The notes beneath the pieces were generated by a model that made no database searches, was not told the origin of the DNA, and saw only the letters and a list, made by a program, of their open reading frames with translations. Made by a program: the position numbers and the translations under genes. Below, in pieces: positions 3,406-59,660 of a DNA stretch of 64,000 nt. The number at the start of each line of letters is the position of its first letter. The first letter of the stretch is position 1. This DNA is from Polytrichum commune (taxonomy: Eukaryota > Streptophyta > Polytrichopsida > Polytrichales > Polytrichaceae): the NCBI GenBank assembly GCA_950295325.1, contig OX485804.1, positions 66,254,033 through 66,318,032 on the forward strand, in the 5' to 3' direction.

Positions 3406-3536
3406 GCCACAATTTTTGTGATGAAATATTGACGTCGGGGAGGCTCGGTATAGGTTCGGGAGGGGGCTCGGCACATGTAAGGCATCGAAGACACATCCGA
3501 CACCAGTGCATGCTGCGTTTGAAGGCTGGGGATCAT

Positions 3537-7195: not shown

Positions 7196-7350
7196 ATAAC
7201 ATTATTCAGATCCATAACAGTGTTATGTGGAACTGACAGTATTCCACACAATATTCTAGGATATTTTTCACATTAAGTCTGAATGTGGGAAATATCCCGT
7301 GGAATATTGTCAGTCCCACAAAACATTGTTATGGATCTGAATAATGTTAT
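7196..7350. mobile_element. Small foldback MITE (155 bp)
   Basis: Nearly palindromic. The left arm begins ATAACATTATTCAGATCC at 7196 and the right arm ends with its exact complement at 7350; similarity continues about 55 bp inward with a few mismatches. No coding capacity. No clear target duplication, so the superfamily is unassigned. Confidence 0.75.
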
Positions 7351-8759
7351 GGACGCGCAAAATAAAGCACAAAACCCAAAACTATGATTTTTAAATAAAT
7401 GAATAAACATGTGTTTTAAACTTCACGAGGCTCATACAAATTGTGTATTTGGTTATGTATTTGATTGTGTATTTGGCCCCTCAGTCATTTAAGGGTTAAG
7501 GTTGACTTATCATTCTCTTCAGTCACACACACAAAATCCAAGTTGGGAAGATGGTTATATATAGCCCTCATATGCGTTATGTTCAAGCAAGCTCTAGTAA
7601 GCTCTAAGGTGACAACCATATGGTTGATACTACATTGATGTTAGCTTTAGTTGGCCATAAATATTATGCTAAATAGTGGTGTTTTGTTTATTTGTTTTGT
7701 AATAGGTTCATAACATTTTTAAGCCTTGTGAAAGAGCTCCCTTTCTTCTCTAGCTTCAAGTATAAATTTCCAATTATCAAATTTATGATTGCATGCATGA
7801 ATGCCGAGCATAGTCAAGTGGCTAGCTCTCATTCGTTGACACCCCATTGTTCCCTATCTTCAAACATGAAACGTTCCCTCATCTACCAAGATTCAATTGT
7901 AAAGGTGCCTCCCAAAATGAAATCAATTTGAGGTTGTCCAAATTTCTTATATATTATATCATTTGTGTCAATAGACTAAACATGCCACTCAAGAATGTGT
8001 ATTGTTGGGAATTCCCTTAATAAGTTAGCCACAATCCAGAGAGCAAAACTCAAGGAAGCCCATGAACGCTCTAGGAGCCTCCAAATGGTAGAAAACTAGA
8101 ACCTAGATGCAAGCCCTAACAAGAAAGGTAAGGGTAGTCATTGAGGATTATTCTCACACGACAATAATGGATGAAAACATGAATGGGATGAAACTAGCAC
8201 ATCCATTGTGATTTTTTTCTCCAAACCTCGGGGTCATCTTTTGTACATCTACCTTAACTTTAGATTTCTTGTTAGCCTTTTATAATGTACACACTAGAGG
8301 AAAATAATACCTCTGCCTTATGTGTATTATATATAATGTCTCAAAGAATAGCCCTTCTTACACTCATGCTAGTTTGTACATGATATGAAGAGTCCACCCC
8401 CTAAGGTGGCCTTATTATGGGCACTTCCCACTTCAAACACAAATTTGGTTGTCAAATCAGAACGGGAATAGTCTCGTCCAATTAGCAATCGTAAATTTTA
8501 AAGGATGTCATTTCAAGTTTCAAAATTGAAGTTTAATCAAAATAAATATAAGAGGTCAAAATGACAATCCTCCTTCTCTTCAAAAGAGATTCACATAAAT
8601 TTACATTGACCCTCCCAATTATCTTAACAATTGAACCTAAAATGATTATATTTTAAGCATATAGTCCAATCTCATTGTAACACATGTCTATTGTTATGAT
8701 TAGGGCGTACAAACCTTGCCATGTACTAACTCAAATATAGGTATCCAATAGTGATGTGC
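7351..8759. other. Intergenic, no gene seen
   Basis: AT-rich. A TGTTGGGAATTCCC sequence at about 8004 resembles the start of some LTRs, but no matching end or second copy was found. Short ORFs here have no recognisable content. Confidence 0.45.
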
Positions 8760-9089
8760 CTTAATCCAACACCGGACTTGATTAGACACCTAGATCTGAG
8801 TGGTATGTGATTAGGCGTATCATCTAAGAATAGACACCAAGAACACATGTGTCTAAAAGAGATTGAACTATGTGCTCAAAATCTGCTAACTATTTGCAAT
8901 AGTCAACACAAGGGGGGGCACCTATATGAGTATTTAATGAGCACGAGAATCTTCACTTTGATAATGAAGAAGACATTCATTGAGCTCCAAAATTTACGAG
9001 GCAAATGGCTACAAGCACGATTTGGATTTAGATTTGCTAATCATCTCGCACTAACGTAATTGCATGTTTCATATTGTATGAAAAGTGGG
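8760..9089 (+). repeat. Dispersed repeat family A (~340 bp), copy 1
   Basis: Shares the ordered landmarks of at least nine other segments here: a GACACCTA..TTTGAGTGG start, GACATGTGTTCAAAAGAGATTGG, a G-run followed by ACCTATATGA, GAGATATTCAT..GAGCTCCAAA, and a GAAGTGGG end. This copy has a run of seven G at 8912-8918. No terminal inverted repeat was seen. Confidence 0.75.
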
Positions 9090-9130
9090 TACATAGAGAA
9101 AAGTGTCCAAATAACACACGTCTAAGGTAA

Positions 9131-9470
9131 ATGTGCCATATTTGGTTACTTACCTTAATCAGACACCTAGTTTTGATTGGTACTATGTGGTTTGGTGTGG
9201 CTCCAAAAGAAAATACCAAAAAGACATGTGTTCAAGAGAAATTGGACTGCGTGTTCAGAATGTGATAACCATTCTAGGCCCAATGGTCAACATTAGGGGG
9301 ACCTATATGACCATTTAACAAGCACAATTTTCTTTTAACTTTGGTAATGAATAAGATATTCATGCGAGCTCCATAAATTATGAGGAAAGTGACTACAACT
9401 TTCATTTGGATTCACTAACCATCTCGTATGTACTAATTGCGACTTTCCTATCCTATGAGAAGTGGGCTAG
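9131..9470 (+). repeat. Dispersed repeat family A, copy 2
   Basis: Same landmarks in the same order as the copy just upstream and the same orientation; only about 40 bp separates the two, so the pair may be a local duplication. Confidence 0.75.
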
Positions 9471-9504
9471 TCATAAAATATATAGATGGGTCTTAAAGAA
9501 CCAT

Positions 9505-14040: not shown

Positions 14041-15389
14041 CTATACACTGTGCATCTCAACTTAGATTTTGAAACTTAATCGACAAACTTTGTGATTTGC
14101 AATTGCCAATTGGGATGAGATGATCCTTGATCCGGTTAAAATTGCTTATGGAGTTGGAAGTGCCCACAATAGTTCCACTTACATCTGATGAGCATGCAGC
14201 ATTGGCCCAAATTTTTTGTGGAAGTCGATTATTTTGAGAGAAAACCATCCTAGAGTGAGCATAGGAGTTGCTCTTACCATTAACTAGGGTTAAGGATGTT
14301 CTTTGTTCTCTTATCTCCTCCCTTGATGCACGTAAATGATATCATTGTCCAATGTCAGAAGTAAAGTCAACATTTGATTTATTCATGTGGTGGATGAACA
14401 CTTGGATAAAAAGTAAAATAAATTAAATTAGAAATTGGTGTTATATTGACATGAATGTGAGCCCATTGTTGAACAAGGGCACTTTTGAACAAGGGCATTT
14501 AATTTGTGCATGCTTTTATAGTTCACATTTGGTTACCTTTGACAGTGAAATTGGAAATTACATACAAGCAGCTCCAAAAGGCCAACATTGAAACATGGTT
14601 AGTTGAAACATGACTTTGGTTAGTAAAATATTACACACTCATCAAATAGTAATAGCATTGCGTAACTCCAAATAGTAATACACACTAATTGGGATAATCA
14701 ATGTAGTTGGGAAAAGTAACCATTCAAGACTAATCTACTTTAGCTTTGTCATTGGTTCCTGATCATCAATCTTGGTAGTTTTTAAGCTAACTAGACGTGC
14801 TTAATTCAGTTGCTTATCTTCATTGGCCAACATTGAAACATGGTTAGTTGAAACAACCTATTGAACTTCTGAGTAAGACGTTCTTGCACTGCGTAGCTCT
14901 AAATAGTAACATACACTAATCAATGTAGCCCACTTCTCCTAGGATATGAAACACACAATTAGTACGAGATGGTTAGCAAATCCAAATTGAGGCCACAACC
15001 ACTACATCGATTATCCCAATTGGTGCGTGTGGTACTAATTCCCGAAACACAAATTATTTTTCCAAGACTAAAAGTTAATGAGGACTAAATTTTTTACTGA
15101 GTGATGCTAATGCTCATTTACCATACTCTTCAAGAAAACTAGTGCATGCTATAAGGAGCGTGCATATATATATATATATATGCATGCAAACAAATAGTGC
15201 CAGTACTTTCAATGAATAGTGCAGATAGGAATAGTATTCTCAATCAATATAATGCCAAGATGAACAAAGTTTCCTAGACCTTTTTGGTGGCACTAATTTC
15301 ATATGTAAAGATATTTAGTATCACCTTCACCAATTTCCCACTCACTATTAGCCCTCCCTCACCAATTGAGATAATTAGTGGTCAGAGCT
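14041..15389. other. Repeat-rich spacer without genes
   Basis: Holds half-copies of the 13585 foldback unit, two copies of CCAACATTGAAACATGGTTA (about 14582 and 14826), and a (TA)n tract at about 15164-15180. No supported coding sequence. Confidence 0.5.
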
Positions 15390-15610
15390 CATATAAGCAT
15401 CTTGTGTATTATCAAAGTGAAGATTCTCTTGCTCATTAAGTGGTCACATAGGTGCCCACAATTATGGTAACTACTGACCCCTAGAATGGTTATAATATTT
15501 TGAGCATGTAGTCCAATCTCTTTTGAACACATGCCTCTTTGGTATCCATACTTGGAGCCACACGTAATGGCGTACCACTCAAATCTACTGTAGGTGTCCA
15601 ATTAAAATAA
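15390..15610 (-). repeat. Dispersed repeat family A, partial copy 4 (reverse)
   Basis: Reverse-complement landmarks in order: AAAGTGAAGATTCT, TTGAGCATGTAGTCCAATCT, GAACACATG, GGAGCCACAC and ACTCAAAT..AGGTGTCCAATTA. Only the first two thirds of the unit is present. Confidence 0.7.
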
Positions 15611-16979
15611 GCAATCTGCCAGACACATGTCGAGCAAGAGAAGACAACAGGTTCAAACAGAGGGTTGATTCAGTCTTCTGAACTGACAAAAATTTTATAA
15701 GAATTTCAAGACACACGTCATTATTTTGCATCGGAAGGTCGCAAAATTTCCACATGGAAATGTCGCAACCTGTCAAATCAAAATAACTTTTGGATATGGG
15801 AAGAGGCCCTCAGAGCCTCAGAGGCTACTACATACAAGGAGTGTAGGAAGTGTTAGTAGTTGAGAACCCAAGGAGTTGAGGACGTCAAGGAGCAGGTTGC
15901 CTCTAATTTACACTACAAGAACGAACACATGGGTCTATATGACACGGTCCAAAAATGATGGAAATCCATCACCATAAAATTAGGAACAAATTATGAGAAT
16001 GCAAAATTAGTATCACAATTGTTTCCGTTTCAAGACAGTTCTGGCCGTTTGGACACAAATGCGTCCTCTGCGAACTGGTCTGAATGATACGATGTCATTT
16101 GATACATGTAATTTAGACTCATGTTTGGTTGGCGAGTGGCATGAAAGCTTGAGAATATGCCACTTCTCATCATCAAGATGACAAGAGGGATATTCCAGGA
16201 TGACACCAATTAAGCCAACCTCGTTTCCTTCTTTCCCCTCCCTCCTCAGGCTTGCAACAACCACAACTAACTGTGCTGCATCCACAGAAAACTATGAAAA
16301 AGAAGTGGAATTTCACTCAAATCGTGCTCAACGAAACTATTAAGGCAAGTTAAGAAAAGAAAAAGAAAAGGTAGGGGATATGTTTACATCAGCATACAAG
16401 TATCCCTCATAGTTGGAGGGATGGTAATGCTTAAAGTTGGCAAGAACCCTAAAGTAGCCACTCTCAAAGGTTGCAGATTTATATCAGCTAGTAACAGTCT
16501 CATGTACTATGCTACAAGTTGTGTGCACACCTTGTCTGCGTAAACTAGAGCATCAGGAGTCGCTTGCAGGTGTTTTCAACATCGAAATTCCATCATCTGG
16601 TCCAGTAAGTGTCACCTGTACCACCAAAACGTTTTTAGTATACAGCTTCCACACACTCTCTAGTTAATGCATAGCGAACTTATAAAAGTTCGTGCTGTAC
16701 TCCATTTCCCGGTTGACTGGAGGATTCGCCAGAATAAATGACCAAAACATTATGCAATTATTGATGAGCGTTTGAAGATTGCTGTGAGGGAGCTGGGTAA
16801 GCAGCTTGTCAAGTATTCTTTAAGCATCTTGCACAAGTTTCCTCCTCCAACAAGAGAATATGCTTCCTGACCATCTGCTGTTGAAAGAAAGATTCTTCTT
16901 CAAAGTATGAACTTCACATACACCTACATAAGGATTTCAGAACTCTAAATTCCTTCACAATTGTAAGATGGGGCCACTC
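15611..16979. other. 3' flank of the SCAB1-like gene; no gene seen
   Basis: A lone CACTACAAGAACG at 15911 looks like a CACTA-type terminus, but no matching end was found. A 90-codon minus-strand ORF at 16013-16285 has no family resemblance and lies where the 3' UTR or flank would be. The 3' UTR of the gene probably occupies part of 16500-16979. Confidence 0.45.
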
Positions 16980-23437: not shown

Positions 23438-24517
23438 TTGATTTCTTTACACCTACTGAGAGGTAATAGTAAAATCATGCCCCCCCCCCTTCCCCCTATA
23501 AATTGGTTGCTAATTCATTCCAAGTTTATGTTCATTGGATAGCATTTTGGAGTTTCTGAAACCAATTATAGGAGTTCATTTTCCTTTCAACAATAACCAC
23601 CGGGCTCTACAAAAAGAATTAACATTTTCACCCTCCCTAGGTTTGTCCTCCCCCTCAGTAGGTGCTCTCAACATTCAACCCCCCATAACCAACTTGAATC
23701 AACAAACTAACCCGCATCAACACACATTTCAAATCTATTTTAATAACGATAGAATTCAATCAAAAATCTCAATCCAAGGGAACCACCATCAAGACGTCTT
23801 TGGGGAGTTAATGCTCTCACGAGCACGAAACTTGAAGGAGGGGGCCCGTCAAAGTTATGTGGAACTAAGATCTCCTCTTCATTAACGTACATATGTAGAA
23901 GGAAGGGGGGGGACCCCCCCGCCCACCCCACGTGAGACACAAGGACCCCTCCCATTCATTCCGGAGGCCACTCGCTTTTACTCTTTTGGGGCTACCCTTC
24001 CACATACGGCAGGCTCGATTAGGGTTTGAGGATCTAACACCCCGCTTTGCAATGGATCTGCTCTTCAAACCGCACAAAGGGTAATTAACATAACATAGTG
24101 GCTCCCCACGCATGCCATTGCCATGGCCATTGGCACAAGTTCAATGGAAGCCTGTTAACTTAATCGTGTATTAAATACGGGTATGCATGATAGAGGTGGA
24201 AGAGTGAGTTTTGAACTGTTTTAAACTCGCTTGATAATAATAATGGCTATTAGAGTCTACATGGACTTTAATAAGTCGTGACCCTGCTTATAACCGTTAT
24301 AGCCTTTTTAACCATGCCTTATTAGATGCCTTATCCATCGCTTATGTAGGATTGGACCTCCGAATTTTCAAAAGCATCTCATTACTTGCCTCATAGGGTG
24401 TGATCGGGATTCTGGGTTATCTGTGGCCTCCGACTACATAAATAAACGTCTAATTATGTCCACGTCTGTGGGTTTTGTTTTATAGGCTGAAAGCACCAGT
24501 TTATGAAGGACCCTCTC
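23438..24517. other. Intergenic, no gene seen
   Basis: Contains C-rich and G-rich short runs near 23480 and 23906-23930. Several overlapping ORFs on both strands have no recognisable content. Confidence 0.45.
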
Positions 24518-24520
24518 TTA

Positions 24521-25016
24521 GGGCCACTTCACACACGAGCCAAGAGCCGTGACCATGGAATTGTGGGAGCCCAAACGGAAAGGGTCCAAAGGCCGTCCCA
24601 ACACACCTCCAACAATCATGTCGTGTGGTCACGGGCCGTCAAGTGGTAGTGTGAAGTCATGTGTACGTGACCGGGCCTTCGATCAAATGCTATTTTGATG
24701 AAATTATGTTCATAAGGGTCTTCGTATAGGATAAAATAAAATGAACCAACGGTTGTGAGCGTTCGGAGTGTCATGGTTTCCCGGTTTTGTGTTAGGCCTG
24801 CCTCCGAGAGGTGGTTTTTGAAAGCAGTCCAAGTGACTGTGAAATATGATCCGTTCGATGCCGTGTAAGAATCCAAGTAGACTTTTCATGGATCTTGCAT
24901 TCGCATACTCCTTCGGTCCCTCAAGCGTGGTGTGAAGCAACCTTGGACCAGCTCCACCTTTTCCACCAATGAAGTTTAATGGTCACGGGCTCTTAGTCTC
25001 ATGTGTGAAGTGGCCC
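24521..25016 (-). mobile_element. Tourist/Harbinger-like MITE, GGCCAC family, copy
   Basis: Starts GGGCCACTTCACACACGAG and ends GTGTGAAGTGGCCC; 496 bp; flanked by TTA on both sides (24518-24520 and 25017-25019). The 3-bp TWA target duplication with GG-CC ends is typical of PIF/Harbinger MITEs. Carries the short ORF shared by other copies (MDSY..ASNGSYFTVTW). Confidence 0.9.
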
Positions 25017-25038
25017 TTAGTTGATTGGGGAATAAGTT

Positions 25039-25210: not shown

Positions 25211-26045
25211 GAAACACAACTTGTGGGAGAGAGGGAAACTATTGTATATGAGTGTACCTCTCATTCGTCCAACATAAAACCCCTTAAATAGTATGCAACC
25301 TAAAGGTTACTTTTAAAGTTGATTTGCCTTCAAAATTAGCTTCTAAAACCCCAAATCAATCTACTCAAGGTCATCTCATATTAATCCATAACAAACCTAC
25401 AGGGGGTTCAAGGTTTTATGTTGGATAAATGAGAGGTACGCTTGTATACAATCATAATTCCCTCTACCCCTGAACTTTACAAAATATGATGAAAATTGGC
25501 AGGTCAAATCCATGGACACGCCCATGAATTAGATTGTGTATATGCCTTAAGTGACTGGGTATTGTCACATTGGTTCAGAGTTCCCACGGAGGTGCAAGCA
25601 GGAAGACCGGATAGTGAAGGAGACGTGGAAGGGGCAGGGCCCAACTGAATGAAGATGTGATGTAGCCCGGGGCGTACCCAAGGCCAACTTTTGTAGAAAG
25701 AGTTGGCAATCTATTAATTCTTTGGACTTTCTTTTGGCTAAGTTTTTTTATTTTTTTTTAAATGCAGGGGCCACTGACCCAAAATTGAAGTGCGATTTGC
25801 CTCAAGGGAAGTGGCATGAAGGGTGGAGGGCAGAGTCTGTTCTTGGAGGTTTGGATTCTTGTCGGATGCTTGGGCAGTTCTGTCGTCGAGGATCGGATTG
25901 TAATAAAGGGTGCCAGAATTACTCAACTCTATTGCCAAATCCCAATCTCAGGAAGACTGTATTCTATTCAATTTCTTGGTGGCCTCGTTGAGGCTCACTA
26001 GATTCGATTCTATCCTATTTTTACCATTGTCATTTCTTCTCTCAC
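25211..26045. other. Intergenic, no gene seen
   Basis: Contains an imperfect repeat pair around 25255-25320 and 25400-25470 (TGAGAGGTACGCTTG-like versus GAGTGTACCTCTCATTC, inverted), perhaps a decayed foldback. Short overlapping ORFs at 25722-26001 show no family match. Confidence 0.4.
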
Positions 26046-26048
26046 TAA

Positions 26049-26547
26049 GGGCCACTTCACACACGAGCCAAGAGCCGTGACCATGAAATCGTGAGAGCCC
26101 AAACGAAAGTGTCCAAAGGCCGTCCCAACACACCTCCAAAATCATGTAGTGTGGTCATGGATTCTCAAGTGTAGTGTGAAGTCATATGTGATTAGGCCCT
26201 CAACCAAATGCTATTCCAATGAATTTCTATTTATGCAGATCTTCGCATATGATAAAATAGAATAAACCAATGATTATAAGCATTTGGAATGCCATGGTCT
26301 CTCAATTTTGTGTTAGGCCTACCTCCGAGAAGGGGTTTTTAAAATTAGTCCAAGTGACCATGAAACATGATTCATTCGATGCCACGTAGGAATCCATGTA
26401 GATTTTATGTCCATATTGCATTCACATACTCCGTTGGTCCCTCAAGCGTAGTGGGAAGCGAACTTGGACCGGCTCCGCCTTTTCCACCAATGAGAGTGCT
26501 TGAAGTGTGATGGTGACGGGCTCTCAGTCTCGTGTGTGAAGTGGCCC
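26049..26547 (-). mobile_element. Tourist/Harbinger-like MITE, GGCCAC family, copy
   Basis: 499 bp from GGGCC to GGCCC with TAA on both sides (26046-26048, 26548-26550). Same orientation as the 24521 and 32636 copies; the shared ORF is broken here by substitutions. Confidence 0.9.
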
Positions 26548-26914
26548 TAACCTTCTTTGTTGGTCATCAAATTCTATTCCTACCTTTAATTTGATGTTCC
26601 GCCCTCGCTGCATGTCACTGCTGTCATTATGAGTCTAGCATGGGCTACAGACTGCCCATGCTAGACTTGGTACTTGATATATTTGAGGATACAATACTTC
26701 ATTTCTGTCTTAGTTTTATTATGGACATAGTTTGCTAGCTCTTCTATTGCATAACATCAAAATGTAGAGTTTAAGAGTCATTATGGACCCCGTGATTTAC
26801 TTGTTTAGATGTGACAATTCTGTTTGGACATACACCAAAATGTCAATGGATTTTAGGATTTAGGCTGTTATAACTCCCTCAAATGTTGATCATCGCTTAA
26901 AACTAAACCATGTT

Positions 26915-30897: not shown

Positions 30898-31034
30898 TTA
30901 AGGTAATCGCCCCGCATCACTGAAAGATCGTCCTACATTACTGGAAAAAAGATGCAAATCTACCGTAGTGATAGACTTGCATATATCTTCCAATGACTCA
31001 TGACATTGCCAAGGACTCATATGTTGGTTAGTAA

Positions 31035-31372
31035 GCGTGCCTAATTCGGTTACTTATCTTAATTGGACACATATATTTGAGTTTGTGACATGTGGTTGGG
31101 TGTGGCTCCGATAACGGGTACCAAGAAGACATGTGTTTGAAAGAGATTGGACTATGTGCTCAACATTTGAAAACTACTTTAGACTCAACAATCAACATGA
31201 TTGGAGGGACCTATATAACCACTTAATGAACAAGAAAATCCCCGCTTTGTCAATGAACGAGATATTCATACGAGCTCCAAAAACTATGAAAGAAGTGGCT
31301 CGGGCCTCGATTTGGATTTGCAAACCAACTTCTACTAATTGTGTGTTTCATATCCTAGGAGAAGTGGGATAG
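31035..31372 (+). repeat. Dispersed repeat family A, copy 5
   Basis: Near-complete unit from CCTAATTCGGTTACTTATC through GACATGTGTTTGAAAGAGATTGG to CATATCCTAGGAGAAGTGGG. The G-run position here has only GGAGGG. Confidence 0.75.
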
Positions 31373-32632
31373 TTGGGAAGAATAAGTGACCATTTTAAGA
31401 CCCATCATCTACCTTAGTGAAACACAATGGAGGAGAAAACAAAACAAAACAAAACATGATTGTAACATGCTTGTATGAAGTAAGTCCCGATGAGAAGGAA
31501 ACTTCAAGAGCAACAACGTACACAAAACTCCAATGACCATGATACACACTTTACTGCAACTTGGTACTAGGTAATAGAGAGCTCCGAGGAACCTTGATTG
31601 TTGAGTGAAAATGAAATGTTTCTTACTAATTTGATGTATGTCCATGGGCCCGAGCAACTGAAAATCTCATTAGAGCAGGAGATCTCACATTGCAAAATGA
31701 TTTTTTGGGGGGAAGACGCTGAAAGAATATGTATGTAATGTAGCCCAAATCAGAGGTACTTTGAAAAACGATGTGGTCCAATAACCACTCCAGATGTGTA
31801 TTTCTTCAAAAAAGACATAGTGTGCATGCAACTTTAGATGTTGACAACAAGAAATGCAATCAACATCTAAGACTAGTTCACGCCACTTCGGTAAATCTAT
31901 TTACCTTGTGATCCCAATAGAAGTGTACGTACATTCTATCATCATGTCTAAAATTCACATGCGAGTCTATATTTACTTGAAATTTGGTTAATTATAAAGA
32001 GGACTTCTAACAATACTTGGACGATATTTGAGTAAACCCAACCCTTACGAAAAATAAATATCTCACAAAATATAGCGTGTCATTGTCCTATAACATTGAC
32101 CGATGTTGGACTGGTATATGAGTGACTGCATGGTATAAGTGCACAGTATTGAAAATGATAAAAATAAACACATATTGACATGTATCATTGATGGCGATGC
32201 TCATTAGATACTAATATGTTATCAGGGTCACAAGCTAAATAGATTTTTGTATATCTGAGTCATTATTTAGGTAAAAAACATCGCAATATCACATCGATAC
32301 TAAAGTAAATTTGCATGTTCTTGGATGACATATTTATCCGAATGATATAAAAACAAATCCTCAAGTACCCATACCCTACCAACATGAAACAAAAAACAAA
32401 AAACACCTCATTATGTATACCCGAGTACTACATAGTATTCCATTCCATTTTATTTTATTTTGATACCGCTACACCACCGGTCCCGACTCCCGACCCTCCA
32501 TTGTGATGCAACCTCACGAGGAGGTACCCTTGCATTCCATGAGGTACGGATTACATGTTTGGAAAGTAGAAGGCAACTTAATTAGTGATCATAACTTAAG
32601 GATCAAGTACGGACTATAAAAACAACAAGGAC
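31373..32632. other. Intergenic, no gene seen
   Basis: AT-rich, no supported coding sequence; an (AAAAC)n run lies at about 31437-31455. Confidence 0.45.
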
Positions 32633-32635
32633 TTA

Positions 32636-33134
32636 GGGCCACTTTGCACACGAGCCAAGAGCCGTGACCATGAAATTGTGAGAGCCCAAAAGAAAGTGTC
32701 CAAAGGCTATCCCAACACACTTCCAAAACCATGTAGTGTGGTCACGGACCCTCAAGTGTAGTGTGAAGTCATATGTGACCAGGCCCTCAATCAAATTTTA
32801 TTTCAATGAATTTTTATTCAAGCGGGTCCTCACACGTGATAAAATAGAATATATCAACGATTGTGAGCATTCGGAGTGCCATGGTCTCCCGGTTTTGTGT
32901 TAGGCCCACCTCCAAGAGGTGGTTTTTGAAAACAGTCCAAGTGACTATGAAACATGATCCATTCGATGCCATGTAGGAATCCATGTAGACTTTACGTCCA
33001 TCGTGCATTCACATACTCCGTTGGTCCCTCAAGCGTAGTGTGAAGCGAACTTGGACTGGCTCCGCCTTTTTTACCAATGACAGTGCTTGAAGTGTAATGG
33101 TCACGGGCCCTCAGTCTCGTGTGTGAAGTGGCCC
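32636..33134 (-). mobile_element. Tourist/Harbinger-like MITE, GGCCAC family, copy
   Basis: 499 bp with TTA on both sides (32633-32635, 33135-33137). Left end GGGCCACTTTGCACACGAG; right end GTGTGAAGTGGCCC. Carries the shared short ORF on the minus strand (32814-33008). Confidence 0.9.
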
Positions 33135-33137
33135 TTA

Positions 33138-36100
33138 GCTTCACTTTGACATGTGGAAAGTCTTTTGATTACCACTAACTCATTAAAGTCAATGTAGGTC
33201 CTTCCATGAGCATCACTTGGAAAATCCATAAGATATTTTTACCATGACCCCACAAAAACCAAGTCAACTATCATGTTTTTCATTTAGATTTGCTAACTCA
33301 AGAAACCATTAGACATACATTAGGGGAATTTTAAAATTAAAATAATCAATCAAAATAAAAGACACTATAAAATCTTCATGATTATGAAAAGTTGTTGAGG
33401 TCATAACATATTAAGTTTATCCCATTTGCACCCTTTCTAAAAGGGCGAAGGGTGGGTGTAGGCTAGTCCCACGGTTGATGCAATTCTTGACCTAAATGTG
33501 GCATCAACTTGCTTGGTTAGTGCGACGCCCCTTGTGAACACCAACAACTTCCTCGGGGGGTTGACTGGCGAAAAATCGTAGAACAACGTGCGATAAAAAA
33601 TAGGGTCTAATATATTCATTGTAGATAAATTTTGTAAAAAACTTACATATAATATAGGGGTTTTTAAGATAATGAAAAAGGATTACATGTAAAATACCAT
33701 CACACCTTTATTTTGAAAAATACCATACCTTATAATCTTTTCTGCAAGGTAAATAGCCCCCCAATAAATAGGTCCTAGACGCACGTGTATGCAAAATAGA
33801 AGAGGGAGTGAACCCCCTGAGACAACTTCACCATTACTTTCATCTCATGACACTTGGCGTTCAAGTGCGCTTACTAACATCTAGGCATGAGCATGTTCAA
33901 CAGTGTTATGAGGTGTATGTTGATACTTGTGTTACACAATGGTCTACATGTTGACTAAAATGCACACAAATGACACTTGGCATGAGTACATTCAACATCT
34001 TTCTCTTGCATACTAAAATGTAAACTCAAGACACTTGCCATTAGTATGCTTGATAATATCTTCCCATTGCATACAAACACGTAAAACTATCGTCTCAAGT
34101 ATCCCACTGTGCTCTACTAAATGTCATAATGTAAATAAATTTTCATTTTAAAAAGTTACTTATGTTGATGAAGAGTATCGTATTGGCGTCGGTGGACGTG
34201 ACACTTTGAGACCTCTAGGCATCTAGTTTAGGCCCTTTGCAAAATAATGTAAATGAAACTAAATACCATAAATTGTTGGAGTGGGACGAGCCCTGATAAA
34301 ATTCCACATGTTGGTTCAATGTGGTAAAATGAACAAGACTCAGTTTGAATACCGATCATTTTGTAAGGTAACCCCGACATAAAAGGAAAACTATGCCTGG
34401 AAAATTCTTGACCCCACGGTACAAAAGACTATTGCTGAGTAATGTTATGCCTCCTAGTAAATTTTTGGGGGTTAAGATTAAGTTTTGTAGCATGAAATGC
34501 ATGGGTGGACTCGACGTGTAAAGCTCCCCACAACACACACTCAAAATAACAATACATGCTGCACTTGCCTACACAATAAGTTAGACTAGGCAACGATTTC
34601 CGGTTCACAAGATGCCTTGATCCGTGTTGTTGATAACATCTTGCATCATGTGTTGTTTCGGAACCCGAACCTACGTGTGATAATATTATAGTTGCCCTTT
34701 ATAAACTACTCTTACTTATAACACAAGTATGAGTGCACTGTATTTTCTAATATGTGTTTTCTTTCCCCCCCCCCTTTTCCTTTTTTAAAATCATAAATGA
34801 AAGAAAATTTTGCTCCAAGAATTGAAGAAATGACATTCATAGTATTACTAAGTCTCATGTTCCTTTCCCTGTTTCAAGTAACAGAGATGTCCTATTCCAT
34901 GGGGATTTTGTTGTGGCACTAAGACTGAACATGTTGTGTTTTGAGAATCTTAAAAAAAAAAAAAATCCGGTTCTTGGTTCAATTGTTCTCTTGCATAGGG
35001 TAAGTGACACGTGGAGGTCAACAATGTTATGCTTGAACACCCTCGAAATCTGTTAAAGACAATCTTAAATAGATGGTACTAAAATTGTCACCTCAAGCCC
35101 TTAGAGTAATTGTTATTATTGCATTGGTAAAGTTACGGATGTTTATCATTGGCAATTCAAGGGACTTCTAGCACATCAAAGTAATCCTTCTTTTGAAATC
35201 CGTATGCAAAACTTACATGGGTCCAAAGTTTTATTGGTGACACATGCTGCTTGATATCAAGGTCGTGGGCATTCTCATGGGCAATAACTCACATATTTCA
35301 TAGTGCAAGATGTAAGGTGAGGTTTCAAGTGGGGTGTTGGTTTTAGCACCCTCTCTACCTTAGTTGAACATACTCAACTGAGGATTATAAGACTTCCAAA
35401 TAGTTTCGGAATTCCTCCCTTATGAAAGTCACTAGATTGGCATCCCATGCCGTATCAAAAAAGAACAAAAGGGAAAGAAAAAGGGCCTAACAATATGCAA
35501 CGACAACCCATAAGACTAAAGTGTTTTGGATGCCAAATGGTAACGTATACGTGGGATTTAAATGGGTTTCAAGAAGTTAAAAAACAACATATGAAAATTC
35601 TTCAAAAAAGTAGATTTTATTAAAAACTGTAGCATAAAGCACTCTACAATATCGTTGTTAAACGTCTTTTTGGCTCATGTACATATATATGAATGAGAGT
35701 TAACTGGGTTGAAACCATCCTCATGTACTTTCAGTCCCATTAACCATTTCGACTTCCCGAACTTTAAAATGAATTGAATTTCAATTCATATAGAAAAAAG
35801 CCCATGCACTAGGCCTTGACCCAATTCATGACCTCGTCAAAAGCAACCGAGTCACCGACCGGCCACCATGATAAGGAGTTGAGGTGGCGGCCGCTTTGGT
35901 AGCCTATATATGTAGGTACCGGAATAATGAGACTTTAAAAAAGAATTCCATGTGCATGTGGATAATGGAACCCGAACCCCTTATGATCACGTGCAACTAA
36001 TAATAAGCTCTTAAGTTCCACATTTAAAGACTTTGAAAGTCCACGTGTGAAATTATGTGAGCTAAAAACATCGTTCATATATATAGCAACTAGAAAATCC

Positions 36101-39255: not shown

Positions 39256-39281
39256 TACGGTCTCAAGGGCCTTCATACTAA

Positions 39282-39780
39282 GGGCCACTTCACACACGGG
39301 ACTGAGAGCCCGTGACCTTTACACTCCAAGCACTCTAATTGGTGGAAAGGACGAAGCCGGTCCAAGTTCACTTCACACTACGCTTGAGGGACCAACGGAG
39401 TACGTGGATGCAAGATGGATGTAAATTCTACATGGATTCCTACATGGCACCGAATGGATCACGTTTCATGGTCACTTGGACTATTTTCAAAAACCACCTC
39501 TTGGTGGTAGGCCTAACACAAAACCGGGAGACCACGACACTCCGAACGCTCACCACCGTTGGTTTATTCTACTTTATCATGTGTGAGGACCCGCGTGAAT
39601 AGAAATTCATTGAAATAGCGTTTGATTGAGGGCCCAGTCACATATGACTTCACACTACACTCGAGGGTCCGTGACCACACTACGTGATTGTGGAGGTGTG
39701 TTGGGACGGCCTTTGGACACTTTCTTTTGGGCTCTCACAATCTCATGGTCACAGCTCTTGACTCGTGTGTGAAGTGGCCC
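39282..39780 (+). mobile_element. Tourist/Harbinger-like MITE, GGCCAC family, copy (opposite orientation)
   Basis: 499 bp, TAA on both sides (39279-39281, 39781-39783). Inverted relative to the 24521, 26049 and 32636 copies. Carries the longest version of the shared ORF (39339-39602, 87 codons). Confidence 0.9.
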
Positions 39781-39783
39781 TAA

Positions 39784-40330
39784 GCCCAAGACTTGTACAT
39801 ATAGGATTGAAGGCCCAAAATCATGTTCTCTTCTAAGATTGAAACTCTGGTTCTTTATTCTTCATTTCCTTCTACTAATTGTTATTTTTATGTCTTCAAA
39901 TGTGTTCATAGGATGGGGGTTGACCATAATCCCTCAAGAAACATTTCCTTGTGGATTGGGAAATGTGGTCTTCAAAACACTAAATTTCAACTCCTTGAGT
40001 GGGAGCTTGTGCATGAAACCTAACACCAAACCTCGCTTGAATGTGCCACCTTGTTGTCTTTTGCTTTTGCCATTAGTGAGACTCATATTCGAATTGGAGG
40101 TCCAATTGGTTGATAATAGTTTGGTGTTGGATATCGTGATGGTGACAAGGTTTTGTATGTTTCAATTATGGATGACAAAAGGAGAGTGCATGAGGTGATG
40201 CACAAAGATATATGATGAATGGGATAAGCAATGGCAAGTGACCAATGATTTTTTTTAAATGTGGTTGAACATTGATGTTGAGTTGGTTGTGTTCAAGGAC
40301 AAAATGTTTTGGGTGTGGGAATGGAATCAT
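39784..40330. other. Intergenic, no gene seen
   Basis: Two overlapping ORFs (39823-40198) show no recognisable family; the second frame is hydrophobic at its start by composition only. Confidence 0.4.
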
Positions 40331-41281: not shown

Positions 41282-42479
41282 CACACCTTGCACATGGATT
41301 TACACCCACCAACACATGTCCCATTATAATTTCCAATATTAGATGTTTAGGATATGTTACGTTTGAGTGTCATGCAAATTTTTTACATCAATTGGGAATC
41401 ATTTACACATAGGGATCAAAAAAGAAAAAAAGAAAAGAAAAGAAAAAACATGTTTAGTATTTGTTGCCCCTAAATTGTGGAGATGACAAATGTCAAGTTT
41501 TGGTTCATGGACCGGTTCCACTGCAAACTAGTTGAGAGCACACTCCCACATTTGAATTAATCCAAAGATAGCTAAACATGTTGAACCAAAATTATCTACG
41601 TGACATAACATGGCAGACTTGAACATGAACAAGAGGAGTAGTTGAAACAATCAAAAAACCATATGAACTAGTGTCAAAGGGATTAAAGCAAACTGCTCAC
41701 GACCATATTATGGTTGCATAGGACAATAGGGGTTAAGGAACGAGCACAAAGGGCACTTTGCTTTTTGGCCATCCATCCATGATATGCATTGAACCATAGT
41801 TCAAGATTGAAGCCCTCATATGAGTTTTCATTTTGAAGGTCTCTCAAATTTCAACCCTTAAGTTGAAAGGCTCGTTAAAATCCAAGACGTCAATCCAAGA
41901 ATATAGAAATGAAATACAAAAAACTCATATTAAACTCATGCATGAATTATATCGTACAAGCTTCTAATACAATGTGAAGAATTAAGAATCAACCATCTAA
42001 CTCCACTTCTTGTAGTGACAATGCCCTACGCTTGTTGGTTCTTGTGGTGGGTAGATCAGATTACATTGAGGACATCAAGTGACGTCTTCATTTTCAATTT
42101 GGGGTTGTGTTTTGATGGGTTGTTTTGAGAGAGGTATGTTTTTAAGGGCCAAATCGCGTTTGAAGGGCATTTGAAGACTTCAATCTTGAACACTCCATTG
42201 AACCACAAAATTACTAGCATAGCTTTTGGGATATTAAATTTCACGACCCATCATTTGCATTGGGTTTGTCCAATCTGCATAAAGAAACCCATTAGCATGA
42301 GCCATTCACAAGTTGACCCCGTGACCTTTTATTGATAAGATCAATTCTTTGAGCCGCCGTTGTGTGCATGGAGTGCCACATTGAATGCTAGGGAGGAGGC
42401 AAATGCATCATCATCACAAGCGACGCTTTTGTTGGGCCCTCTAGTGAATCATTAAGTTAGCACTAATTAAGTTAGTGAG
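41282..42479. other. Intergenic, no gene seen
   Basis: AT-rich. Short ORF on the minus strand (42056-42244) without family features. Confidence 0.45.
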
Positions 42480-42818
42480 GGGTCGTAATTTGGTTACTCG
42501 TCTTAATTGGACACCGTATATTTGCGTGGTGTATGTTAGGTGTGGACACAACAACGGACACCAAAAGACATGCGTTTAAAAGAGATTGAACTATGTGTTC
42601 ATCTTCATTCTTTAATTTTTCTGTTATAAAATAGTCAACTTAATTGGGGGAGGGGGGGGGGGACCGTATGATGAATTAGTAAGAAAGAGAATGTCCAACT
42701 TGACGATGAATGAGATATTCATTTGAGCTCTAAACATTACGAGAAAAATGGCGACATGTGCAAGTTGGATTTGTTAATCAACTCACACTAACTACATGTT
42801 TCATATCTTGGAATAAGT
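42480..42818 (+). repeat. Dispersed repeat family A, copy 6
   Basis: Near-complete unit (TTGGACACC, AAAGACATGCGTTTAAAAGAG, then CATATCTTGGAATAAGTGAG). The G-run is expanded to GGGGG-A-G12 at about 42645-42662, directly followed by ACC as in other copies. Confidence 0.75.
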
Positions 42819-44009
42819 GAGTGCTAAGCAATGTACGGGGAGTACCGAGGTTTAGTTACGAGCTAGCTGCATTTTTTTCCGGAGATTTCCGAATGAGTTC
42901 ACAATGATTGGGACGAGGTACCGATGTAAAATTGTCGAGGTTAGAAATCGACTGGTTCAAGGGAGAACAGACCAGCAATATGGCTGGTTGAGGCATCATA
43001 CTTTGGGATATTTACTGAGAGTGATTCTTTACTTTAGGCAAGTACCCGAAAGGACTAGGGATAAGTAGCGGGTGGTTCTCCCCGTTCATTGATGCGCCCT
43101 TTTTGGATCCATACATTTTTCAAAGGCTACAAGATGGTGGGGGCTTGGCAAGGTTCAACTCCTTCCAGGGATACTTGAGATTTCTTTCAGCACAAACTCA
43201 CCCCCTTAAAAGCAAAACACCGATTTTCTTTTATGAAAGAAAAGGAAAACAAAAAACCCAACTTACTATACATAACTTCAGAAACATACCGAAATAAAAT
43301 CTAGAAACAAAGAAAATCACTGAATGGTAAAGGTAAATGTAAGAATTTAACCAAGAAAAAAAAACAAAAAAAAACAGGCTTTCAGTAGCTTTTGAGTAAA
43401 AAGAAAAAAATTCCGAACCTCTTTATAAAAGGTAGGAAATGTACTGATTTTTGTATAGAACTCCTGGGACTTGGTGCTGAGCCAAAAGTGTCCATTTAAA
43501 GGTCAGCTTATCTTAGTATCTGTCTTAGCAGAAGGGTTGAAATGAGCATGGGATACAATAATTTTGAGATGCTATACTGATTTTGATGTGCAAAATTAGT
43601 GTAGACCATAGTAATTTCTCCTTTATATCATTAAACACATTGTGACCCCATTACTTTCCCCTCCATACTCAGTGTCACCATAAGTATACACTAATTACCT
43701 TCAAGTGGAGGAACTTAGTCTAGTTTATACAAATTCCACCAAACACTTTATTTTTCTGCCATAGTAAATCCAATGATTGGTGTAGATAATATGCACACTA
43801 AATTTACCAAACTTCATTATAGCTTGAAAACATGGTAAGAGATTTCAACTTCACTTATCTTCAATTTGGATGTAGACATTAGGAATGTTGAATGTACGAG
43901 GACACTCTTGTTGCATGTGTCCCTTTATTGTGTATGGGAACTCGAGAGCCTTGCCTTTGTATTCTTTGTTTAGTCTATACTTGCAGGCTATCTTGGTACG
44001 TGTTGAGTC
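42819..44009. other. Intergenic, no gene seen
   Basis: No supported gene. A-rich stretch at about 43230-43410. ATTAGTGTAGACC / TACACTAATTACC motifs near 43600 and 43690 suggest an old foldback. Confidence 0.4.
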
Positions 44010-44012
44010 TAA

Positions 44013-44503
44013 GGGCCACTTCACACACGAGACTGGGAGCCCGCGACCATTACACTTCAAGCACTCTCATTGGTGGAAAAGGCGGAGCCGGTCCAAGTTT
44101 GCTACTTCACACTATGCTTGAGGGACCAACGGAGTATGTGAATGCAAGATGATGGATGTAAAGTCTACATGGATTCCTAGATGGCATCGAATGGATTATG
44201 TTTCATGGTCACTTGGACTGTTTTCAGAAACCACCTCTTGGAGGTAGGCCCAGCACAAAACCGGGGAGACCATCGCACTCCGAACGCTCACAATTATTGA
44301 TTTATTCTATTTTATTATGTGTGAGGACCCGCATGAATAGAAATTCATTGAGGGCCTGGTCACATATGACTTCACACTACACTTGAGAATCCATGACTAC
44401 ACGACATGATTTTGGAGGTGTATTTGGGATGGCCTTTGGACACTTTCTTTTGGGCTCTCACAATTTCATGGTCATGGCTCTTGGCTCGTGTGTGAAGTGG
44501 TCC
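44013..44503 (+). mobile_element. Tourist/Harbinger-like MITE, GGCCAC family, copy (opposite orientation)
   Basis: 491 bp, TAA on both sides (44010-44012, 44504-44506). Right end is GAAGTGGTCC, one base off the family terminus. Same orientation as the 39282 copy. Confidence 0.9.
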
Positions 44504-44544
44504 TAACTACTGGATGAAATTGTCTTGCACAAGTGACTTTAGAA

Positions 44545-49543: not shown

Positions 49544-51460
49544 TCACTTTTGCTGCCCGTCTAAAACAATCTCGAAAAGGTCGGATTCAGCCTCTGACAG
49601 AACATGCTGATGCTGCAATTCTGGAGAGTTTGCATACTCAAATTCTGAGATCCACTGAGCGTCTGCTCTTCCAGTGGAAAAAAGGTCGTGGCTGTCATCA
49701 AATAAAATGCCATTTTTCCTGAGCCTTCCTTGTACCAGTCGACAGGATGGATTTGCAACTCGTTTGATGTTAGCAGGGACATATTCAAATGTTTTCTGGC
49801 CTAAGTTGACTGAAATTGTCACGTCGTAGTTACTTGCAATTGTGGGGTAAAGTGGATAGCTGAACTCGGAGCTCTTAAGATGGGCTTCGTAGACAAGTTC
49901 ACCATTCACTGTGAAGTACACCTTCTTCAATTGGCGTTCAAATCCACATCCAATTGTAGTCTTCACAGCTCCCCATGGCCGCCCTTTTACTGGCGAACCC
50001 TCCTCTCCTTCTAATTGAGGTATACCTGCATGTAACATGAAACCCTAAAAATCTTATGACAGCTCCTTCACAACAACAAAAACATTTCACTGGTTTCTGC
50101 AATTTCCGTCAATTCATACTGTCAGCTCCTGACTTCATTTGTTTACGGCACAATGTTTGGGAAGCTAAACTCCAGTTAACTTAGTAATAAGCTGCCTGTG
50201 CCCTGCCATCACATGGAGAGGTTGCTAGAGAGTTGCCAGACTATTTATTCCGTGTACTTTGTGCAATGCAATTAATCACCCGACGACTTGTATATCCATT
50301 GGCATATTAATGACCTAAGCTTAACCTATTTCACAGACCAACAACGATGCTAAGATTTGATGCAGTCTGAAATGAAAGCAGAGAGCACATGACAAGCAAA
50401 ATCATCATGCCATCGCCACTGGATGAGAAAGAGAAGAGAACTAACCATTGACATAACACTGGCCATCCGCTGAAAGGAAGCCGACAGAGCCTGGGTCGAA
50501 GCCAAGAAGCCTGAAAGGTGGTGCTTCCGCACCTGCTAGGCCCACTGAGAGAAGCTGGTCCCAGTCGATCGGAAGCACCTTCTGGAATGAATTCTCAAAA
50601 TTCGATTGATCACTTGGTGGACAAACTTTTCCTAGCTGTACATGCAGGTCCAATTCTGGGGTATGATCGCTCTCCAGCAATGTGTCTTTCTTCACATCAT
50701 TAATTCGATTGAGCTCCCCCCCCTCCACTTTAATGTGACTCAATTCAGCGCCATGAGATTGTTGTGTCGGTAAACCTTGACGTTTTTTATCATAAACTTC
50801 GGAGGTAATGGACTCTGCGATGAGCTTCACCCGTTCGCTTCCCGCTAAGGAGCCATGTTCTAAACTAAGTTCATTTCCAGAAGCTAAGATACAAATTTCA
50901 AAGTACGCATCCTGAGGAAAAGGAGAAGGACCTAGAACTGGTCCAGGTAAGGGCAGAGCAGTCTGCAGGGCCTGCACAGGAAGGACGCAGCCGTCCTTGT
51001 TTGAACGTAAACCAGGATTGAAGCGAATCCGCTGCATGTAGTTAAACTCCCCGGAGCCAGGTCCGGGTATCCATGTGATTTCAGGTGCACAGAACTTCAT
51101 TGATGCACAAGAAATGCACATCTCCCACATCTGGTGGACGGGTCCTGCAAATGCTCCCATAGCGGAGGCCGGATACGAAAATGCAAATGCCGTCCACCCA
51201 TGCTCCAAGGCCGAGATAACATGCGACGGATGTTCGCTCCATTCAAAAGCTCTTAGTGGTACAATAGTCCGCCATAGACTAGCCATCTCAGCGCTGCGCT
51301 TCAGAGCGGCATTACGCCGGTCTACTGGTGCCGCCACTGACTCTTCGGTGAAATATTTCTGCCACAACCACTTGGCGTATGCTTTAATTATAAGGATTAC
51401 CAGCAGCGACGGAAATGCTGCTGCTAGAGTTAACATAATTATTGACCAGGCTTGCTCCAT
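49544..51460 (-). CDS. Membrane-anchored SPRY-domain protein
   Basis: Two coding exons (minus strand): 51460-50446 and 50025-49544, phase-1 GT–AG intron, 498 residues. ATG at 51460 directly opens a hydrophobic segment (IIMLTLAAAFPSLLVILIIK, residues ~7-26), a likely signal-anchor, followed by basic residues. The SPRY domain spans the intron: LLGFDPGSVGFLSADGQCYV at the end of exon 1, then GRPWGAVKTTIGCGFE, KKVYFTVNGELVYEAH, LYPTIASNYDVTISVNLGQK in exon 2. Between lies a region with WTAFAFSYPASAMGAFAGP and a variable acidic stretch. SPRY domains bind protein partners; the partner here is unknown. Related plant proteins with an N-terminal anchor and C-terminal SPRY exist but are poorly characterised. 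The C-terminus ends LFEIVLDGQQK. Confidence 0.88.
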
Positions 51461-54940: not shown

Positions 54941-54994
54941 CAATGAATGGATTTCGTTATAAGGTAAGCAGATCTTAAATAGACATGTTTCTCT

Positions 54995-55180
54995 ATGCAC
55001 CCACTTCTTCTAGGATATGAAACACGCAATTAGTGCAAGATGATTAGCAAATCCAGTTGTGCCCATAGCCACTTTCCTCATTATTAGTTTTGGAATTCGT
55101 ATGAATATCCTATTCATTGATAAAGTGAAGATTCTTTGAGTTATTGAATAATCATATAGGTCCCCCCCCCCAACTCAATT
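54995..55180 (-). repeat. Dispersed repeat family A, partial copy 7 (reverse)
   Basis: Reverse landmarks: CACTTCTTCTAGGATATGAA, AAGATGATTAGCAAATCCA, TTCATTGATAAAGTGAAGAT, ATAGGT then C10 at 55162-55171. Truncated after the C-run. Confidence 0.7.
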
Positions 55181-55204
55181 AGACATGTGTTATTCATATA
55201 CTTT

Positions 55205-55520
55205 TCTCTTTGCCCCTGCTCCTCATAGGATATGAAACACACAATTAGCCCAAGATGATTAGCTTATCCATATCGTGCATGTAGCCGTTTGCATCATAAG
55301 TTTGGATCTTGTACAAATATCTTATGTATCACAAAAGTGTAGATTTTTTGCTCATTAAATGGTCATATAGATCCCCCCCCAACCATGTTGACTTTTAAGC
55401 TTAGAATGACCAGCATATTTTGAACACATACTCCAATCTCTTATAAACACATGACATTTTTTTAATGCTTATTCTTAGATCCACACTTATTCACATATCA
55501 CTTAGATACATGTGTCCAAA
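55205..55520 (-). repeat. Dispersed repeat family A, copy 8 (reverse)
   Basis: Starts again at the CTCCTCATAGGATATGAAAC landmark, includes AAATGGTCATATAGAT followed by C8 at 55373-55380, and runs through ACACATACTCCAATCTCTTA to ATCACTTAGATACATG. Directly follows copy 7. Confidence 0.7.
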
Positions 55521-55759
55521 TTATTGCTATGTTGGATTCAAAAACGTCTACAATATATGCATGGCCAAAGAACATGGCTTAAATGATTTTTAAAAAAAAA
55601 TTTGTTGCTTGCCATGAAATTCAACTCAAATTATCACAGTTAGGAATTTTTTTGGATCCATGATTGTGTTATAAGATTTTAGCCACAATGAATGAAGCTT
55701 TCTAATATCCCTTGTTGACCCTTGGTTTTTCAGAGTCATAAAGTGTTGAAGCCATAAAT

Positions 55760-56815: not shown

Positions 56816-56838
56816 TTTATGTGCAATACAACTCCAAC

Positions 56839-57713
56839 TGTCACGTCCCTCTTTCACACAAGAATAATAAAATCGTGAATACACAAGACACCGATACTGA
56901 GAACTTTCAAACTTTGTAATTACAAGGGTTTTACAACTTAAACACAATATTGTGATTGCTATGAGCTCGAACCACCCGACCACATGAGAGACAAAGACGA
57001 TCTTCTCCCCAAGCTCTCTCTTATACCCAAAGGCACTCCTAGTCTTATCCATCTTAATCCATAGTATCTAAGAGATACTTTAGAAGTCTCATATCTTACT
57101 AGATTTAGACTGAAGCTTCTTTATCTATATACATAGATCATTTCACTGTATGATCCATTCTTATCTTTTGGCTCAATCACAATCCTCTAGTTGGAAATGT
57201 CAAATTCCAACTTGATGCATTCATCTATTCTTCTAGTTGGAACTGTCTAATTCCAACTTGATCCGATCATCTACTCTTCTAGTTGGAACTGTCTAATGCC
57301 AACGTGATTTATTCATCCATTCTTCTAGTTGGAACTATCTAATTCCAACTAGATTTATCCACCTAGAGTTGTCTAGCTCCACTGAATAACATCCACCCGT
57401 TGGAAGTTGTCTAACTCCGATTCAGATCTTCTAGTTGTAGTTGTCTAACTTCATCACAAAGATCTTCCAAAGGGAGGTGTCTAACTTCAATGCATAGATC
57501 TTTGATCCGAGTTGTTTAACTTCCGTGCATAATTCCTTCATGGGTTGTCTAGCCCTTGTGCATCATTCTCTCTTGGGTTGTCAGACCCAATTCTTCCTTC
57601 AAAGTTGTCTGAATCCAAACACCATCTACTCACATGCTAAGTGCAGTAATGTATAATTCATCTTTCTTTCTTGTATAATCAAACATTAAGTCTTTGAATC
57701 CGGGTATATCACA
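56839..57713. mobile_element. Solo LTR (875 bp) with CCAAC target duplication
   Basis: Starts TGTCACGTCCC and ends GGGTATATCACA (TG..CA), flanked on both sides by CCAAC (56834-56838 and 57714-57718). No polyprotein or second LTR lies nearby, so this is best read as a solo LTR left by recombination. The 5-bp duplication fits LTR retrotransposon integration. Orientation and superfamily are not determined. Its second half carries the hairpin-unit array. Confidence 0.8.
57184..57620. repeat. Array of ~12 hairpin units inside the solo LTR
   Basis: Units spaced 35-47 bp apart centre on a TGTCTAA-like loop with complementary arms. Examples: AGTTGGAA..TTCCAACT (57189-57212, 57234-57258, 57327-57351), GAG..CTC at about 57366-57378, AGTT-GTCT-AACT at about 57438 and 57401, GGG-TTGTCTAG-CCC at 57542-57555, TTGGGT-TGTCAG-ACCCAA at 57574-57591. 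Spacers carry ATCATCTATTCTTCT-like sequence in the first units. Confidence 0.75.
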
Positions 57714-57718
57714 CCAAC

Positions 57719-59327: not shown

Positions 59328-59660
59328 TTACCATTATTCAACTACTTATCTTAATCAAATGCCTACATTTGAGTGGTATGCGATTTGATGCAGCTTGAAG
59401 AATGGAAACCAAAAAGATAAACGTTCAAAAGGAGATTGTACCGCATGCTCAAAATATCTAAACCTTTCTAGGTTCAATAGACAACATTGGGGAGACTTGT
59501 ATGACCATTATAATGCACACAAGAATCTCCACTTCAACAATGAATAAAATTAATTATATGAACTCCAAAACTTATGAGGAACGTGACTACGGCCTTGACT
59601 TGGATTCACTAACCATCTTGTACTAATCGTGTGTTTCCATATCATAAGCGAAGTGGGCTA
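59328..59660 (+). repeat. Dispersed repeat family A, copy 10
   Basis: Near-complete unit: ACTACTTATCTTAATCAAAT, CTACATTTGAGTGGTATG, AACGTTCAAAAGGAGATTG, ATTGGGGAGACTTGTATGAC, ACTCCAAAACTTATGAGGAA, CATATCATAAGCGAAGTGGG. A further tail fragment (AAGTAACCATTTTAAGACCC) lies at about 60197-60220. Confidence 0.75.

Follow-up and report, generated by a model that had tools for sequence, protein, structure and literature searches.

Between positions 56839 and 57713 of the window (the whole 64-kb stretch of DNA analyzed here, 59% A+T), a row of short inverted repeats lies within what is probably a solo long terminal repeat (LTR) of 875 bp. The question raised by this locus is whether the arms of these repeats pair since hairpins are kept by selection, or whether they are the remains of a palindromic promoter box. 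We favor the latter, with a probability of about 60%: a solo plant LTR whose U3 region carries a decayed array of cis-regulatory palindromes upstream of a TATA box. Maintenance of a hairpin is not needed in this explanation. The repeats of the window and the LTR-like ends suggest that it is plant nuclear DNA.

The palindrome array itself is real. Twelve homologous units with TGTCTA-like cores span 430 bp (57190..57619), in agreement with the preliminary description, which had reported about 12 inverted repeats around a conserved TGTC(T)A, and all the arm pairs quoted there (TTGGAA/TTCCAA, GAG/CTC, GGG/CCC, and TTGGGT/ACCCAA) are present. The core pattern has 13 matches in 57101-57713; the match at 57122 was dropped, as it falls beyond the array and its arms do not pair on visual inspection. 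Units u1 (57190..57211, core 57198), u2 (57236..57257, core 57244), u3 (57282..57303, core 57290), and u4 (57328..57349, core 57336) have Watson-Crick pairs at seven, seven, six, and seven of eight arm positions, respectively, and the pairing in u4 extends to position 12. Pairing is less complete in u5 (57362..57383, core 57370; 4/8), u6 (57400..57421, core 57408; 5/8), u8 (57470..57491, core 57478; 4/8), u9 (57505..57526, core 57513; 4/8), and u10 (57538..57559, core 57546; 5/8), and is weak in u12 (57598..57619, core 57606; 4/8). Six of the eight positions are paired in u7 (57434..57455, core 57442), with an interruption, and in u11 (57571..57592, core 57579), the unit with the TTGGGT/ACCCAA arms. 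From u1 to u12, the cores are spaced by 46, 46, 46, 34, 38, 34, 36, 35, 33, 33, and 27 bp; that is, u1-u4 repeat with a period of 46 bp and the remaining units are 27-38 bp apart. The units are widely different from each other, with u1-u4 near-identical.

The consensus of the units should be noted. Built from nine rows, with u2 representing u1-u4, it reads TTGGAGTT-GTCT-AACTCCAA. The consensus forms a perfect dyad in its own right, which suggests that the units derive from a single palindrome and have since decayed. The best conserved part is the asymmetric TGTC core, in which both T residues are found in all 12 units and the G and the C in 11 of the 12 each. When up to three mismatches are allowed, TTGGARYTGTCTARYTCCAA has eight matches at seven places (one on both strands) versus 0.07 expected, and all of them lie inside the array, within u1-u7. 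The array is depleted of CpG (6 CpG in 456 bp, observed/expected ratio 0.36, GC 0.39), and CGG or CCG occurs near only two of the 12 units (u6 and u9).

The two arms of a unit match each other better than arms dealt at random. With the right arms redealt among the units, Watson-Crick pairing fills 48.0 cells on average, compared with the 65 of 96 cells observed (12 units, eight arm positions, p = 0.0002). The tests at eight and ten positions belong to a series of 60 in which the unit set, the arm length, and the pairing rule were varied, with two shuffling schemes for each; the p values given here are those for Watson-Crick pairing and shuffled arms, uncorrected for multiple testing. The signal is lost when one arm is slid out of register. 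Much of the excess arises because u1-u4 are near-identical, and the signal is weaker when they are collapsed: 45 of 72 cells versus 34.6 with one of the four kept (p = 0.0049, eight positions), and 38 of 64 versus 31.0 in u5-u12 alone (p = 0.025, eight positions). The significance also varies with arm length. In u5-u12, 38 of 80 cells are paired at ten positions (33.7 in shuffles, p = 0.14) and 18 of 40 at positions 4-8 (13.7, p = 0.072), and positions 9-12 give no excess of pairing. For covariation over nine pairs including the core T-A, the score of the 12 units is 0.365 versus 0.249 in shuffles (3 of 500 as high), and 12 cells are changed on both sides versus 5.2 (1 of 500 as high). However, pairs with a both-sided change number 6 versus 4.1, which 71 of 500 shuffles reach, and further pair types show no excess (11 versus 12.5, 452 of 500 as high). 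The earlier proposal that the arms change in a complementary manner is partly supported for these 12 units, by the score and by the both-sided cells but not clearly by the pairs with a change and not by the pair types, and the signal weakens once u1-u4 are collapsed.

Pairing of this kind may be simply inherited. A palindromic repeat that decays without further constraint would leave pairing by shared ancestry, and the matched changes would be a few inherited events plus chance. We consider such simple decay possible, though not probable, and it is compatible with the cis-regulatory array, so that both can hold. It accords with the perfect dyad of the consensus and with u1-u4, which count one ancestral change four times. 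To provide a null for shared ancestry, the units were simulated along their own tree with parsimony site rates, using four rates and two roots. The p value for at least 65 paired cells is 0.0003-0.057 when the root is the consensus and 0.0003-0.17 when it is a perfect palindrome. The upper value of the latter range belongs to the lowest rate, where 17% of the simulations reach the observed pairing as decay would have it, whereas the three higher rates give p of 0.0003-0.023. Compensated cells, in which a Watson-Crick pair is formed by two bases that both differ from the consensus, also speak against decay alone: there are 14 among the 96 cells versus simulated means of 2.3-6.4, an excess under each of the eight settings (p = 0.001-0.042, varying with the assumed rate), which agrees with the complementary change proposed earlier. 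However, arm position 8, at which the consensus is unpaired, accounts for five of the 14, and by reading of the unit alignment the 14 reduce to about six events. Since the simulation tree comes from the same 30 columns, eight of its nine branch supports are below 80, and the events are so few, the pairing beyond shared ancestry is suggestive only.

Selection on a folded hairpin, either RNA or single-stranded DNA, would predict that the GTCT/AGAC loop is conserved while the stems change freely. The loop is indeed conserved and the stem variable, and the raised covariation score and the 14 compensated cells are in line with such selection. The array as a whole also folds better than dinucleotide shuffles, with z scores of -5.1 as DNA (+ strand), -4.3 as + strand RNA, and -3.1 as - strand RNA, and none of 100 shuffles is as good in each case. 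Contrarily, among the units taken singly, only u1, u2, u4, and u11 fold better on both strands than their mononucleotide shuffles (fraction at most 0.010). A fraction of 0.045 is reached on a single strand by u3 (the - strand) and by u6 (the + strand), and the other six (u5, u7-u10, and u12) fold no better than mononucleotide shuffles on either strand. The 31 unpaired cells include five G-U on the + strand and eight A-C, which are G-U on the - strand; equal mismatch classes would give 5.2 each, and neither strand shows a clear excess of wobble. No Rfam family matches the window at the gathering score. RNA structure is not favored over DNA dyads, because only four units fold well on both strands and wobble is not clearly enriched. 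In addition, the signal becomes weak without u1-u4 (p = 0.025 at eight positions and 0.14 at ten in u5-u12), pair types are not in excess, the tree derives from the very columns that it judges, and five of the compensated cells fall where the consensus is unpaired. A DNA dyad in partial decay accounts for much of the pattern, since the most conserved TGTC core is asymmetric and the consensus is already palindromic. The preliminary description held that the hairpin is kept while its sequence drifts; the covariation score and the compensated cells lean that way, but half of the units fold like shuffles and wobble shows no clear excess, and we judge selection on the fold to be unlikely.

Matched changes can also be produced without any selection. 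Template switching between the arms of a palindrome can correct imperfect palindromes, and such switching during replication or reverse transcription would keep the arms complementary. Unit u11 could be an example, since it departs from the consensus on both arms and yet is paired at all of its inner six positions, beside its imperfect neighbor u10. The excess also lies in Watson-Crick pairs, as templated correction would give. However, only about six events are available, and none of them can be dated or polarized from one copy. Mutational upkeep therefore seems to us an improbable source of the pairing.

The status of the surrounding segment is next considered. TG is found at 56839 and CA at 57713, and CCAAC borders both ends, at 56834..56838 on the left and 57714..57718 on the right, as a probable 5-bp target-site duplication. 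The ends of the segment, TGTCACGTCCCT and TGTGATATACCC, are mutually inverted at 7 of 12 bases. The boundaries had been called firm from TG..CA and CCAAC. Both features are present, but the word overstates them: when ends were placed at random 2000 times at distances of 0.6-1.2 kb, 23.9% of the placements had TG..CA with identical 5-bp flanks somewhere within ±100 bp, and a separate set of 1000 trials gave 25.9% for the same search range. The LTR is thus likely but less firm, since such a combination is common by chance (24-26%). When the ends are also inverted at 7 or more of 12 bases, the chance drops to 2.6% (±100 bp, 2000 placements); narrowing the search to ±50 bp gives 0.7%, and widening it to ±200 bp gives 9.6%. 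In the 64-kb window, no second LTR copy is found; away from the array and the sequence flanking it, the best match covers 36 bp at 78% identity. No internal retrotransposon region adjoining the LTR was recognized by eye. The ends of the LTR are putative and its family unassigned, since no second copy was found in the window or in the scanned collections described below. It is doubtful that there is no LTR here and that plain intergenic sequence with a tandem array of the minisatellite type has TG..CA ends by chance, as the 23.9% above and the lack of a second copy in the window or a recognizable internal region alongside would allow, but the inverted ends, at 2.6%, argue against. The left flank ACAACTCCAAC (56828-56838) resembles the right arm AACTCCAA of the array, probably by chance.

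The orientation of the LTR can be argued from TATA-like sites, all of which come from a motif scan. On the - strand, a TATA-like TATATAGATA is located at 57122..57131, 58 bp past u1, and TATAAG at 57025-57020. In this reading direction, 94 bp of LTR precede the array, and 58 bp separate it from the TATA-like box downstream. On the + strand, TATATACA (TATATA), which is nearly equal to TATATAGATA, is located at 57126. We favor the - strand as the sense strand, because this puts the TATA box downstream of the array, the order found in known cases, though this argument borrows from the comparison with Sireviruses and is not an independent proof. In the + orientation, the array would be downstream of the TATA box and hence transcribed.

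Sireviruses (Ty1/copia) provide the closest layout for comparison. As far as the excerpted text of PMC2829016 goes, 13 elements have palindromic LTR motifs, most with few intervening bases; an element has 8-32 copies overall and 3-14 in the LTR. The motifs begin 200-400 bp into the LTR, lie mostly in its upper half over 300-500 bp, and are followed by a TATA box near the middle of the LTR. They are more than 85% alike in 10 of the 13 elements, share a CGG-CCG core in 12 of the 13 (Tnd-1 is the exception), and mostly form CpG islands, which are absent from 3 of 21 elements. The same excerpts describe a C-rich integrase signal about 21 bp from the 3' end of the LTR in 17 elements, a CA/ATTGG-TATCAGAGC junction, and multiple polypurine tracts.

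Provided that the - strand is the sense strand of the LTR, our array resembles those parts of the Sirevirus description in that palindromic repeats occupy the upper half of the LTR. Unlike the Sirevirus motifs, it starts 94 bp in, not 200-400 bp, its consensus is TTGGAGTT-GTCT-AACTCCAA instead of a CGG-CCG core, CpG is depleted instead of forming an island (observed/expected 0.36), and its units are widely different. No C run is seen by eye near the LTR end in either orientation. On the - strand, TATCAGAGC is absent after the LTR, where CA is followed by GTTGG, the target duplication. Membership in the Sireviruses was considered and the array was not filed there, because it has neither the CGG-CCG core nor a CpG island, which are typical but not universal features. 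The LTR may nevertheless come from a divergent Sirevirus, since one motif-bearing Sirevirus is without the core and 3 of 21 elements are without islands. As far as its anatomy tells, the array most likely works like the Sirevirus arrays, and the LTR family is left unassigned.

As PMC10760457 and PMC5311732 describe the work of Bousios 2016, the palindrome clusters of maize Sirevirus LTRs are hotspots of small RNAs; the clustered motifs are located in the LTR regulatory region, have predicted secondary structure, and are characterized as highly variable and rapidly evolving. Our array is like these clusters in grouping palindromic motifs in a probable LTR regulatory region; the difference is that the maize motif CACCGGACNNNGTCCGGTG comes with small-RNA data, whereas the array here is one copy known from sequence alone. 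PMC10760457, in the part accessible, puts forward the hypothesis that LTR structures are caught between promoter function and serving as templates for host small RNAs. With a different motif, a similar layout, and more varied units, the present array would make this idea testable outside Sireviruses, given further copies; with only one copy at hand, its contribution is modest. A plant LTR family outside Sireviruses with its own hairpin array, in which the GTCT/AGAC loop is fixed, the stems drift, and the fold is recognized by the element or the host, seems improbable to us; if true, the array would be convergent with the maize Sirevirus palindromes.

The BII boxes of Tnt1 are repeats in U3. 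According to excerpts of PMC3316501, they are LTR promoter boxes that bind host factors induced in defense, and the symmetry of Tnt1 box I is stated in the part of PMC2829016 at hand. Tnt1 is a different element, and its boxes are likened to the present array by description, not by sequence.

In the cis-regulatory explanation, the solo LTR would be read on the - strand, and its U3 would hold 12 tandem copies of a TTGGAGTT-GTCT-AACTCCAA box just upstream of the TATA box. The array may have grown by tandem duplication, with u1-u4 added recently in steps of 46 bp to the older u5-u12. While the element was alive, the boxes would have served as repeated sites for a putative host DNA-binding protein, predicted to recognize the TGTC-centered dyad and to set promoter strength. 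Read-through transcripts could then form small hairpins usable by the small-RNA silencing of the host. This explanation is supported by the 12 homologous units, the consensus dyad, the pairing in register, the 2.6% chance of the ends (±100 bp), and a layout that resembles Sirevirus LTRs as excerpted from PMC2829016; the lack of a clear wobble excess is as expected of a DNA dyad. On the other hand, the single copy, the TATA-like sites on both strands, and the start of the array at 94 bp, not 200-400 bp as in Sireviruses, count against it.

The position of conservation within the unit should also be noted. A classical dimer site has conserved half-sites and a free spacer; the asymmetric TGTC core is instead the most conserved part here, which also counts against the cis-regulatory explanation. 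No binding factor was matched to the unit. The conserved TGTC might, as an idea only, be taken as the auxin-response motif, and a literature search on this reading returned nothing on point. A limited literature search, mostly by subject, found no report of the motif as an LTR element. Among the papers listed for a search with the sequence letters, neither of two 20-base units was found, and the two 12-base cores explain the papers listed, which treat other subjects, judged by title.

Related sequences were sought in viral and prokaryote collections. A two-unit pattern gave four loci in viral contigs and 44 in genome contigs, while two single-unit patterns had no matches in the viral contigs. 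Because these contigs are viral and prokaryotic, a lack of matches there is hardly informative for plants. When the LTR was compared with all 48 loci by BLAST (E up to 0.1), two alignments were obtained, at overlapping places of one locus, L036, each with 63 columns, 75% identity, and E of 4.9e-4. This locus, from an alphaproteobacterial MAG contig, has its own 34-bp tandem repeat (about 2870-2990), with GAAGTT..AACTTC arms around GTTGTCT, and was taken as unrelated to the LTR; its likeness to the dyad of an array unit is probably chance. Seven of the 48 loci (L001, L004, L006, L018, L020, L042, and L036) were inspected around the pattern and have other tandem or dispersed repeats, and the remaining 41 were compared by BLAST alone. 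A single Porphyromonas MAG (S15M_Sa_50) accounts for 35 of the 44 genome-contig loci and carries GTTGTCTAACTTGA-like elements at many sites, two of which were read (L006, 4157-4190; L018, 897-952). L042, from a Myxococcales MAG contig, has a tandem array of a short CCAAGTTAGACAA-type unit at about 3480-3600.

Other features of the window were also observed. A weak SPRY-domain match (E of 0.001, under the Pfam cut-off) is found in an open frame at 49544-50044 on the - strand, perhaps an exon. A 157-bp foldback at 7195-7351 is 78% identical to its own reverse complement, and a 285-bp unit at 2825-3409 is in tandem duplicate with 94% likeness. A repeat of about 505 bp has six copies across the window that are 79-90% alike, four on the + strand (3592-4095, 24517-25020, 26044-26555, and 32629-33138) and two on the - strand (39278-39787 and 44009-44506). 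By eye, five of the six end in inverted repeats resembling GGGCCACTTCACACACGAG, with flanks similar to TTA or TAA, and we take the repeat to be presumably a MITE family of the Harbinger/Tourist type. An older repeat family with copies about 68-88% alike is dispersed on both strands, at 8763-9471, 14926-15614, 31027-31373, 42471-42824, 54982-55538, and 59343-59660.
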